In this document: positions 9,384-13,111 of the stretch, piece by piece
Numbering within the stretch: the first letter of the stretch is position 1
Layout of the letters: each line of letters starts with the position of its first letter
Origin: Methylosinus sp. C49
Lineage (GTDB): Bacteria; Pseudomonadota; Alphaproteobacteria; Rhizobiales; Beijerinckiaceae
DNA length: 64,000 nt
Direction: 5' to 3'
Assembly: GCF_009936375.1 (NCBI RefSeq)
Contig: NZ_AP022332.1
Coordinates: 2,822,501-2,886,500, forward strand
Made by a program: the position numbers and the translations under genes
The notes under the pieces: model-generated
Database searches by the model: none
What the model saw: the letters and a program-made list of their open reading frames with translations, nothing else
Told to the model about the DNA's origin: nothing

Positions 9384-9542
9384 GCGGGACCGTTCGCTCA
9401 AAACGCGCGGAAACCGTCAATTCCGCATTCAATTCGTCTCGAATGAAGCGCGCCGGCGCCGGCGGCTCGAGGGAACGGCCGCCCCGGCGCTGCATTTTTC
9501 TCCCGCTCGAAAGGCCCGAGGGCCTCGAAGGGAGTATCCATC

Positions 9543-10154
9543 ATGTATTTTCGTCGTTCGTCTCTTTCTGTCGCGCTCGCGCTGGGCTTCGGCTGCGCCG
9601 CGCCCGCCGCGCAGGCTTTCGAAAACCCGTTCGCCTTTCTGTTCAGCGGACGCTCGGCGGCAAGCGCTCCGTCCTCCGCGGACGGCCAGCTCTCCGGCGA
9701 ATATTCCTCGACGCGCTCGGTCGTCGCCGATCCGACCCGCCAGCGGCCGGGCACGATCACTGTCGACACGCAGAATCGCGTTCTCTATCTGTCGATGAAC
9801 GATGGCCAGGCGATCCGCTATGGCGTCGGCGTCGGCCGTCCGGGCTTCACCTGGCGCGGCCATACGCATATCGGCCGCAAGGAGGCCTGGCCGGCCTGGA
9901 CGCCGCCTTCGGCCATGCTGCACCGCCGCCCGGATCTGCCGCGCCATATGAGCGGCGGAGCCAATAATCCGCTCGGCGCACGCGCCATGTATCTCTATTC
10001 GGGCGGCCGCGACACTATGTTCCGCATCCATGGCTCCAACGAGCCCTGGACGATCGGCCATGGCGTCTCTTCCGGCTGCATCCGCATGCTGAATGGCGAC
10101 GTCAGCGACCTCTATAGCCGCGTTAAGGTCGGCACGCAGGTCCGCGTTCTCTGA
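9543..10154 (+). CDS. L,D-transpeptidase (YkuD fold), exported
   Basis: A 203-residue periplasmic enzyme. It has a signal peptide ending PAAQA near residue 25 and a YkuD domain with the catalytic signature HGSNEPWTIGHGVSSGCIRM (His163, Cys179). L,D-transpeptidases make 3-3 peptidoglycan cross-links or attach proteins to peptidoglycan, using a Cys nucleophile that resists most beta-lactams. A second member is encoded at 22911-23444, so this strain has at least two. A strong hairpin followed by a T-rich stretch lies directly downstream. The gene appears to be a single-gene unit. Confidence 0.93.
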   Translation: MYFRRSSLSVALALGFGCAAPAAQAFENPFAFLFSGRSAASAPSSADGQLSGEYSSTRSVVADPTRQRPGTITVDTQNRVLYLSMNDGQAIRYGVGVGRPGFTWRGHTHIGRKEAWPAWTPPSAMLHRRPDLPRHMSGGANNPLGARAMYLYSGGRDTMFRIHGSNEPWTIGHGVSSGCIRMLNGDVSDLYSRVKVGTQVRVL

Positions 10155-10162
10155 ACGAGAAT

Positions 10163-10201
10163 CGCCGGCGGCTCGTCTCACGACGAACGCCGGCGTTATT
10201 T
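10163..10201 (+). terminator. Probable intrinsic terminator after L,D-transpeptidase gene
   Basis: Arms CGCCGGCG at 10163-10170 and 10188-10195 pair perfectly, with an inner TCGT/ACGA stem, and are followed by TTATTTCT. It begins eight bases after the stop codon of the L,D-transpeptidase gene. The small membrane-protein gene converges from the other side, so the hairpin may act for both strands. Confidence 0.7.
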
Positions 10202-10215
10202 CTGGTTCCGCAGCG

Positions 10216-10407
10216 TCAGCCGACGCAATTGGCGTTGGTCAGGCCGGACATGATGATCTGCGCGACGACCCAGACGCCGATCAGCGCCCAGGCGATGCGC
10301 GTCTTCTTCTGCCCATAGAGATAGGCTCCGCCGATCGGCATGGCCAGCAGCAGATAGGGAAGCGCGGAGTTTCCGATATTCTCACAGTACCACAGGGCCG
10401 TGGGCAT
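10216..10407 (-). CDS. Small two-segment membrane protein of unknown function
   Basis: A 63-residue protein made almost entirely of two hydrophobic segments (about residues 14-30 and 37-55) separated by the polar turn GQKKTR, with a C-terminus containing NANC. It has a convincing ribosome site (AGGAAAT directly ahead of the ATG) and starts seven bases after the gltD stop codon, so it is probably cotranscribed with gltD. No family is recognised. Small inner-membrane proteins like this are easily missed; the RBS and codon use support a real gene. Confidence 0.65.
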   Translation of the reverse strand: MPTALWYCENIGNSALPYLLLAMPIGGAYLYGQKKTRIAWALIGVWVVAQIIMSGLTNANCVG

Positions 10408-10413
10408 ATTTCC

Positions 10414-11832
10414 TCACCTCGGTAGATTTGTTTCGCCCATCAGGAAGGCGTCCACCGAGGCGGCGCACTGCCGGCCCTCGCGGATCGCCCATACGACGAG
10501 CGATTGCCCGCGCCGCATGTCTCCGCACGCGAAGACTTTTTCGCGTGACGATCGATAGGATTTGACGTCGGCGGCCACATTGCCGCGCGGGTCCAGTGTG
10601 ACCGCGAGCTTTTCCAGCAGGCCCTCGCGGACCGGCGAGACGAAGCCCATGGCCAGCAGCACGAGATCGGCCTTCAGCGTGAACTCGCTGCCGGGAATGG
10701 CGGCCAGCTTGCCGTCGACGCGCTCGCAGCGCAGGCCTGTGACGGCTCCGTCGGCGCCGATGAACTCGCGCGTCATCACCGCGAACTCGCGCGTCGAGCC
10801 CTCGTCATGGGAAGAGGAGGTGCGCAGCTTCAGCGGCCAGTCCGGCCAGGTGACGAGCTTGGCTTCCTTCTCCGGCGGACGCGGCATGATCTCGAGCTGC
10901 GTCACCGAAAGCGCGCCCTGGCGCACCGAAGTGCCGATGCAGTCCGAGCCCGTGTCGCCGCCGCCGATGACGACGACATGCTTGCCGGAGGCGAGGATCG
11001 GCTCATTGGTGACGAGCGGCTCGCCGGAGACGCGACGGTTCTGCTGCGGCAGGAAATCCATGGCGAAATGCACGCCGCGCAGATCGCGCCCCGGAATGGG
11101 AAGATCGCGGGGCTGCTCGGAGCCGCCTGCGAGAACGACGGCGTCATGCTCGGCGACGAGCTTTTCCGTCTCGAGATCGACGCCGACATGCACATTATAG
11201 TGGAAGGCCACGCCTTCCGCCTCGATCTGCGCCACACGGCGGTCGATGAGGTGCTTCTCCATCTTGAAGTCGGGAATGCCATAGCGCAGCAGGCCGCCGG
11301 CCTTGGCGAACTTCTCATAGACATGCACGTCATGGCCGACGCGCGCCAGCTGCTGGGCGGCGGCGAGGCCGGCGGGGCCGGAGCCGACCACGGCGATGCG
11401 CTTGCCGGTCTTGGTCTTCGGCGGCTCGGCCACGATCCAGCCCGCCTCGAAGCCGCGGTCGACGATCGAACATTCGATCGTCTTGATCGTGACCGGCTGG
11501 TCGACGAGATTCAGCGTGCAGGAGGCCTCGCAGGGCGCGGGGCAGACGCGGCCGGTGAACTCCGGGAAATTATTGGTCGAGTGGAGATTGGCCAGCGCGC
11601 GGCGCCACTCGCCATTATAAACGAGATCATTCCAATCCGGGATCTGATTATTGACCGGGCAGCCATTGTGGCAGAACGGAATGCCGCAATCCATGCAGCG
11701 CGCCGCCTGATTGCGCGTCGCCTCCTCGGAGAGAGGAATGACGAATTCGTCATAATGGCGGATACGGTCAGCGGCCGGCTTATATTTGCGGTCCTGCCGG
11801 TCGACTTCCAGAAACCCAGTGACCTTTCCCAT
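10414..11832 (-). CDS. gltD: Glutamate synthase small (beta) subunit
   Basis: A 472-residue iron-sulfur flavoprotein that takes electrons from NADPH and passes them to the GltB subunit, where glutamine and 2-oxoglutarate become two glutamates. Visible features are an N-terminal Cys-rich cluster region ([13 protein letters not shown]), a FAD-binding [16 protein letters not shown], and a second nucleotide site [13 protein letters not shown]. Family members normally sit next to gltB. Here the upstream neighbour is ilvE and the downstream neighbour a small membrane protein, so gltB must be elsewhere. With urease feeding ammonia into glutamine/glutamate synthesis, the enzyme links to the urea operon metabolically, not by position. 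Confidence 0.95.
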
Positions 11833-11992
11833 GCCTCGCCAACCCCTCGGCCCGTCGCGTCAATGGCGTCTTCGAGGGATTTTTTACCACGAAGACGCGT
11901 AGGACACGAAGCAAATCGTCTCGGATATCGCTTTCTCGACCCGTCGCCGGCGCGCGAATGTCTCTTTAGCGCGCGCTTTTACGCGGCGAAGC

Positions 11993-12880
11993 TCAGGCGG
12001 CGGCCGCTTTCGGATCGACCTCGCGCGTGTAGTCCTCGATCAGCGTGCGCGAGATGGCGCCCGGCGTGAAGCGATAGGGGCCGGCCTCTGCGACCGGAGT
12101 GACCTCGGCGCCCGTGCCGCAGATGAAGCATTCGCTGAACTCCGGCAGCTCCTCCGGCATGATGCGACGCTCGACCACCTCCATCCCGCGACGACGGGCG
12201 AGATCGATGACCGTGCGGCGGGTGATGCCGTCGAGGAAGCAATCGGCGAGAGGCGTATGCAGCACGCCGTCCTTCACGAAGAAGATATTGGCGCCGGTGC
12301 ATTCGGCGACGCGGCCCTGCCAGTCCAGCATTAGAGCGTCGGCGTAGCCGCGACGCTCGGCGCGATGCTTGGAGATGGTGCAGATCATATAGAGGCCCGC
12401 CGCCTTGGCCAGGGAGGGCGCGGTCTGCGGATCGGGCCGGCGATAATCGGCGACGTCGAGACGAATGCCCTTCATCTTGGTGGCGACGTCGAACATGCTC
12501 GGCCAGTCCCACACGGCGATCGCGACATTGATCGTCGAATTCTGCGCGGCGACGGCCATCATCTCGCTGCCGCGCCAAGCCACCGGCCGCACATAGCAGC
12601 TGTCGAAGCCATTGGCCTTCACCACCGCGGCCTTGGCGGCGTCGAGCTCGGCGACGCTATAGGGAATCTCGAAGTCGAGGATTTGCGCAGAACGCTTGAA
12701 GCGCTCGGAATGCTCGGTCGATTTGAAGATCACGCCGCCATAGGCGCGCTCGCCCTCGAACACGCTGGAGCCGTAGTGCAGCCCGTGCGAGAGAACATGG
12801 AGCTTGGCGTCGCGCCAGGGGATGAGCGCGCCATTGAACCAGATGTAGCCGTCGCGCTGGTCGAAGGGCAAAACCGACAT
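11993..12880 (-). CDS. ilvE: Branched-chain amino acid aminotransferase
   Basis: A 295-residue PLP enzyme of fold type IV that makes valine, leucine and isoleucine from their 2-oxo acids. Typical segments are DGYIWFNGALIPWRDAK at the N-terminus, HGLHYGSSVFEGERAYGG, and the C-terminal SECFICGTGAEVTPV. The ATG at 12880 has GGAG upstream and matches the usual family start; an in-frame upstream start at 12970 adds a low-complexity tail and is less likely. It is divergent from the MarR regulator gene with an operator-like inverted repeat between them, so control by that regulator is plausible. Confidence 0.95.
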   Translation of the reverse strand: MSVLPFDQRDGYIWFNGALIPWRDAKLHVLSHGLHYGSSVFEGERAYGGVIFKSTEHSERFKRSAQILDFEIPYSVAELDAAKAAVVKANGFDSCYVRPVAWRGSEMMAVAAQNSTINVAIAVWDWPSMFDVATKMKGIRLDVADYRRPDPQTAPSLAKAAGLYMICTISKHRAERRGYADALMLDWQGRVAECTGANIFFVKDGVLHTPLADCFLDGITRRTVIDLARRRGMEVVERRIMPEELPEFSECFICGTGAEVTPVAEAGPYRFTPGAISRTLIEDYTREVDPKAAAA

Positions 12881-12980
12881 CCGACACTCCGATGAGGTCA
12901 AGGGCGAAAAAGGGGGGCCGTCCCATGCGGCGGCCGGTCTCGAGCCGGCCTTCTCCGAACCACTAGCCATCGGTCAGAAA

Positions 12981-13001
12981 TATGTCAATATAGCTGACGT
13001 A
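12981..13001. promoter_or_regulatory. Inverted repeat in ilvE-marR intergenic region, operator candidate
   Basis: TATGTCA at 12981-12987 and TGACGTA at 12995-13001 form seven-base arms with one mismatch around a seven-base spacer. The site lies in the AT-richer divergent promoter region between ilvE and the MarR gene. MarR dimers bind this kind of short palindrome and commonly autoregulate. That this is the binding site is inference. Confidence 0.4.
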
Positions 13002-13111
13002 TAAGTTCAGGGCGTTCGCGCGGCGCCGAAAGAAGCGTCTCGCCCCGCGAGCGCCCTCTTTGGGCACGGTTCACGGTTTTTCGCTTGCACCGACATATAG
13101 CGGTTCCCGAC

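Follow-up and report, generated by a model that had tools for sequence, protein, structure and literature searches.

Results

The small gene and its locus

The window, i.e. the whole stretch of 64,000 nucleotides from Methylosinus sp. C49 analysed here, contains on its minus strand the gene gltD for the small subunit of glutamate synthase (GOGAT) at 10414..11832 (TIGR01317, 689.9 bits against a cut-off of 447.7). It is followed on the same strand by a small gene at 10216..10407, which encodes a protein of 63 residues with two predicted transmembrane (TM) segments and no family name. Six nucleotides separate the stop codon of gltD from the ATG of the small gene. A ribosome binding site, GAGGTGAGGAAAT (10408..10420, minus strand), is composed of the end of gltD (codon AGG, stop codon TGA) and this 6-nt gap, and a strong hairpin which may mark the end of the transcript is located 20 nt 3' of the small-gene stop codon (10163..10195, minus strand, dG -26.0). 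The upstream neighbor of gltD (11993-12970, minus strand) encodes a class IV aminotransferase (PF01063), and the convergent neighbor downstream of the small gene (9543-10154, plus strand) encodes an L,D-transpeptidase domain (PF03734). Of the first 14 loci inspected, 12 had a match to this gene of the YkuD type, which is convergent with the pair of gltD and the small gene (two of these 12 duplicate others; L010 and L011 were without a match).

The 63-residue open frame behind gltD is a real gene, as seen from the frame itself, its homologues and its substitution pattern. For nine Methylosinus pairs, dN/dS values computed according to Nei-Gojobori ranged from 0.12 to 0.48 and indicate purifying selection (window gene versus L029: dN 0.046, dS 0.375); the two highest values, 0.42 and 0.48, both stem from pairs including L030. 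Purifying selection, a conserved start and the ribosome site together identify the frame as protein-coding.

Distribution across genomes

Searching with the 63-residue protein as a single sequence retrieved relatives in 11 of 149 genomes of the family, which belong to two of 43 genera. Named relatives are those of Methylosinus sporium DSM 17706 (94% identity) and Methylosinus sp. Ce-a6 (86%), and a Methylocystaceae metagenome bin contains a relative with 71% identity. A profile built from 11 aligned members was used for wider counts in genome samples that overlap with each other. With this profile, a homologue was detected in all 10 Methylosinus genomes and in all 39 genomes of the second genus (g18), which is probably Methylocystis. 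Among the relatives, 17 of 299 genomes and two of 124 genera had a match (10 + 7 genomes, from the same two genera), and in the order sample 2 of 397 genomes, again from these genera. In the phylum sample 4 of 398 genomes were hit, two in the known genera and two by short matches outside of them (E 0.006 and 0.009); the latter span 27-33 positions, one with an in-frame stop codon, and were rejected as chance matches, as was a weak second match in G572 (E 0.006, 39 positions). Neither the viral contigs searched with the small protein nor the plasmids searched by tblastn contained a match.

gltD was present in 60 of 60 family genomes sampled, which cover 43 genera. As 41 of these genera keep gltD without having the small protein, GOGAT itself does not need it. 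In the family sample, the gltD genes of g18 are the closest to that of the window outside Methylosinus (82 and 85% identity in two genomes), and those of 56 genomes from other genera share at most 80% identity with it. The possibility that a divergent version resides behind gltD in other genera was rejected: at 26 non-carrier loci, namely the best gltD matches among the 56 non-carrier genomes, the small protein had no tblastn match with an E of 1e-4 or lower, and the open frames of at least 35 residues which begin 200 nt or less from the gltD stop codon include no look-alike. Two non-carrier loci (L077 and L083) encode a strongly hydrophobic protein of ~260 residues directly 3' of gltD, which is unlike the small protein. 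Because all sampled genomes of both genera are carriers and the 26 non-carrier loci are devoid of a relative, the small protein seems to be fixed in these two related genera, and it is not found elsewhere in our samples.

Pairing with gltD

The sequence-only reading had described the small protein, without naming its strand, as tied to gltD and had proposed to inspect the conservation of the pair. This tie was borne out: in 49 of 49 carrier genomes (10 + 39, one locus each; the carriers are related, so these counts are not independent) the small gene lies directly 3' of gltD on the same strand. Gaps of 3-8 nt occur in 44 of the 49 genomes, and four have gaps of 20-22 nt; the latter correspond to the g18 loci L021, L038, L041 and L042, in which the ribosome site is placed outside the gltD coding sequence. 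A measured gap of 560 in G585 (L034) is an artefact, because gltD is broken in this assembly.

gltB is not part of this fixed pair. In the window's genome, the match to the GOGAT large subunit lies ~283 kb away from gltD (G000:C1:2548400-2549515 versus G000:C1:2832917-2834332), and the corresponding distances are ~384 kb in G146, ~710 kb in G556 and ~27 kb in G128; in G017, G114 and G573 gltB is only a few kb from gltD. gltD keeps the small gene next to it also where gltB is located elsewhere, as in this genome, G146 and G556.

Ribosome binding site

A good ribosome site seven bases after gltD had been claimed from the sequence of the window, and the site is indeed a strong, extended Shine-Dalgarno sequence (CCGAGGTGAGGAAAT-ATG) which overlaps the gltD stop codon, with the ATG starting at the seventh base. 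In 47 of 49 genomes, the 16 nt preceding the ATG contain AGGTGA, which in 23 of them is extended by GG; AGGTAAG and GAGG take its place in the remaining two genomes. In most carriers, the AGG of the ribosome site is the last gltD codon. AGG is a rare codon (2 of 228 arginine codons across seven further window genes), and the single AGG among the 36 arginine codons of the window's gltD is the final one. Among the 48 carriers whose gltD is intact, 44 have AGG as the final gltD codon (35 of 39 after merging near-identical loci), versus 3 of 26 non-carrier loci, 15 of which end in CGC. Since the carriers are related, no probability was put on this contrast. In the four genomes whose gltD stop codon lies further upstream, AGGTGAGG or AGGTGACG is kept before the small gene. 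Across genomes, this conservation is strong evidence for initiation at the ATG of the small gene. Because the ribosome site is partly made of the last codons of gltD, it is reasonable to infer that ribosomes leaving gltD re-initiate on the small gene, i.e. that the small gene is probably translationally coupled to gltD.

Probable transcript end

A 76-nt fold behind the stop codon of the small gene has a predicted energy of -37.4 kcal/mol (z -4.0, with 0 of 200 shuffles as good). The T-run behind the hairpin in the window is weak and broken, and the hairpin is absent from the list of the terminator scan. Many g18 loci exhibit a G+C-rich stem which starts ~25 nt or less from the stop codon and is flanked 5' by an A-run and 3' by a T-run. 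In a strict count, for which the best hairpin had to lie within 75 nt of the stop codon at -10 kcal/mol or better with at least four T in the next eight positions, 17 of 37 distinct loci passed, the window locus having exactly four T; this is a raw count without shuffle control and is blind to terminators whose T-run is inside the stem. The consensus scan of positions 9500-13100 yielded two promoter-like sites (0.8 in shuffles, sd 0.9), neither of them just before gltD, and three terminator-like sites (2.7 in shuffles), none of them after the small gene. As the gap to gltD is short (3-8 nt in 44 of 49 genomes) and a hairpin, or a stem with a T-run, follows the small gene, the two genes are probably transcribed together, with the transcript ending behind the small gene. 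The small gene thus looks like the last and, given that its ribosome site uses the final AGG codon of gltD, probably coupled cistron of the gltD transcript.

Features of the protein

The small protein is predicted to be a membrane protein with two TM helices, in agreement with its earlier description as a 63-residue membrane protein with two hydrophobic segments. The best 17-residue Kyte-Doolittle windows cover residues 14-30 (mean 1.38, moderate) and 38-54 (mean 2.07, strong), and a positively charged loop (GQKKTR in the window protein) lies between them. An AlphaFold2 model with low confidence (four sequences; mean pLDDT 70.7, pTM 0.46) places helices at residues 3-13, 16-32 and 36-61. W6-Y7-C8 is situated close to the N terminus and C61 close to the C terminus; the motif W-[YF]-C and exactly two cysteines are conserved in 49 of 49 genomes. 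Invariant in the 37 distinct proteins (L001-L053) are M1, W6, C8, L21, G27, G32, L42, I43, W46 and C61, and Y31, which together with G32 stands ahead of the basic loop, is nearly invariant. In all 37 distinct proteins, the loop contains more lysines and arginines than both termini together. Applying the well-established positive-inside rule by such counting, both ends and both cysteines are predicted to reside in the periplasm, leaving ~6-7 residues in the cytoplasm. Since both cysteines would then face the periplasm, a disulfide between C8 and C61 across the hairpin would be likely.

Family and literature searches

The window protein alone had no NCBIfam family above threshold, and searches of Pfam and PHROGs with the 11 aligned members gave sub-threshold matches only. 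Residues 22-54 of the window protein matched PF01773 (Nucleos_tra2_N) with E 0.048; we rejected membership, as the score of 14.6 bits is well below the gathering cut-off of 27 and at chance level, and only 3 of the 11 members matched this family at E up to 1. Among PDB sequences, 31 matches were obtained with a best E of 0.41, 30 of which are antibody light-chain or variable-region entries, and a PDB fold search starting from the low-confidence model gave nothing significant (best E 7.8).

The gene has apparently been unstudied so far. A literature search joining Methylosinus, Methylocystis and small membrane protein found no paper, one joining gltD, glutamate synthase and small membrane protein found just a general E. 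coli review, and a broader search contained nothing relevant among the matches listed (best 15 of 77). For BN69_3585, the locus tag numbered after gltD in Methylocystis SC2 and presumed to be the homologue of the small gene, no paper naming the tag was found.

Discussion

We propose, with a probability of about 0.45, that the gene encodes a lineage-specific small membrane protein which forms a two-helix hairpin, is produced from the last cistron of the gltD transcript and most likely acts as an accessory or modulator matched to GOGAT. According to this proposal, ribosomes finishing gltD would re-initiate on the small gene, and the product would insert as a hairpin into the inner (or intracytoplasmic) membrane with its ends in the periplasm and its short basic loop in the cytoplasm. 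The disulfide between C8 and C61 would pin the hairpin, which could then pack against another membrane protein as accessory or modulator subunit. With its amount tied to that of GltD, the small protein might thereby match a step at the membrane, e.g. ammonium or amino-acid transport, to GOGAT capacity. The sequence-only reading had named two roles which small membrane proteins of this kind can have, recruiting nitrogen-assimilation enzymes to the membrane and modulating transporters; for the small protein, both are conjectural.

Small regulatory membrane proteins such as KdpF, AcrZ and MgtR, to which YohP is reportedly to be added, likewise are very small, have one or two TM helices and presumably influence metabolism or a larger partner in the membrane, as proposed here. 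No sequence relation was found between them and the 63-residue protein, which differs from them in its two invariant, probably periplasmic cysteines and in that the gene upstream of it encodes a soluble enzyme. The glutamine synthetase inactivating factors of cyanobacteria are small, soluble proteins which act on glutamine synthetase. They share with the protein described here a connection to the GS/GOGAT pathway, whereas the latter is predicted in the membrane and its gene adjoins gltD. We are hence dealing with a lineage-specific protein of an ordinary general kind with an unusually tight tie to gltD.

An unlikely, yet serious competitor of the modulator proposal is that the protein performs a job unrelated to nitrogen, e.g. 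in the intracytoplasmic membranes, and was placed behind a strongly and constitutively expressed gltD, so that the tie to gltD may merely reflect a convenient promoter. Its restriction to two genera among the genomes sampled would fit this explanation, as would the 41 of 43 sampled genera which run GOGAT without it. The two GOGAT subunits of Methylocystis SC2 are well detected, at amounts which hardly change with the ammonium level (PMC9600857), and this also agrees with a hitch-hiking gene; a cistron behind gltD would therefore be made steadily, provided that the operon is the same there. Against it stands the pair, which is kept in all 49 genomes even though gltB and gltD have parted in several.

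We consider it improbable that the protein serves as a membrane anchor which binds GltD or GltBD via its conserved basic cytoplasmic loop. The small gene staying next to gltD where gltB sits elsewhere, the matched production which one transcript would make likely, and a loop that is basic in 37 of 37 distinct proteins and preceded by the invariant G32 and the nearly invariant Y31 would suit an anchor. The ~6-7 residues facing the cytoplasm in the predicted topology argue mildly against tethering, and several of the best-conserved residues (W-[YF]-C and the C-terminal cysteine) are on the side opposite to the loop. An anchor is less likely than a membrane modulator, given how small a part of the protein is exposed to the cytoplasm; as the predicted topology leaves little surface for the soluble GltD, it is no less plausible that the protein acts laterally on a partner in the membrane than that it holds GltD.

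More speculative still, and doubtful at present, is the idea that the disulfide-pinned hairpin serves the glutamate synthase of type II methanotrophs as a third subunit or a regulator on the membrane side. It would then couple GOGAT or the electron supply of GltD to a membrane process, with the last codon of gltD preserved as part of the ribosome site of its partner. Finally, there is a negligible probability that the frame is an artefact or open by chance alone in GC-rich DNA: the window contains many spurious frames, but genome comparison in practice refutes this explanation by selection and by a start, a ribosome site, cysteines and a pairing with gltD that are conserved across the 49 genomes.

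In methanotrophs, ammonia competes with methane for methane monooxygenase, as stated in PMC9600857. If the link to GOGAT or to transport is true, the small protein would add a membrane component to nitrogen assimilation, known to date from two methanotroph genera only. Even without a link to nitrogen, it represents a clean case of a small gene which is absent from the Pfam, NCBIfam and PHROGs collections searched and for which the last codons of the preceding enzyme gene, gltD, supply the ribosome site.
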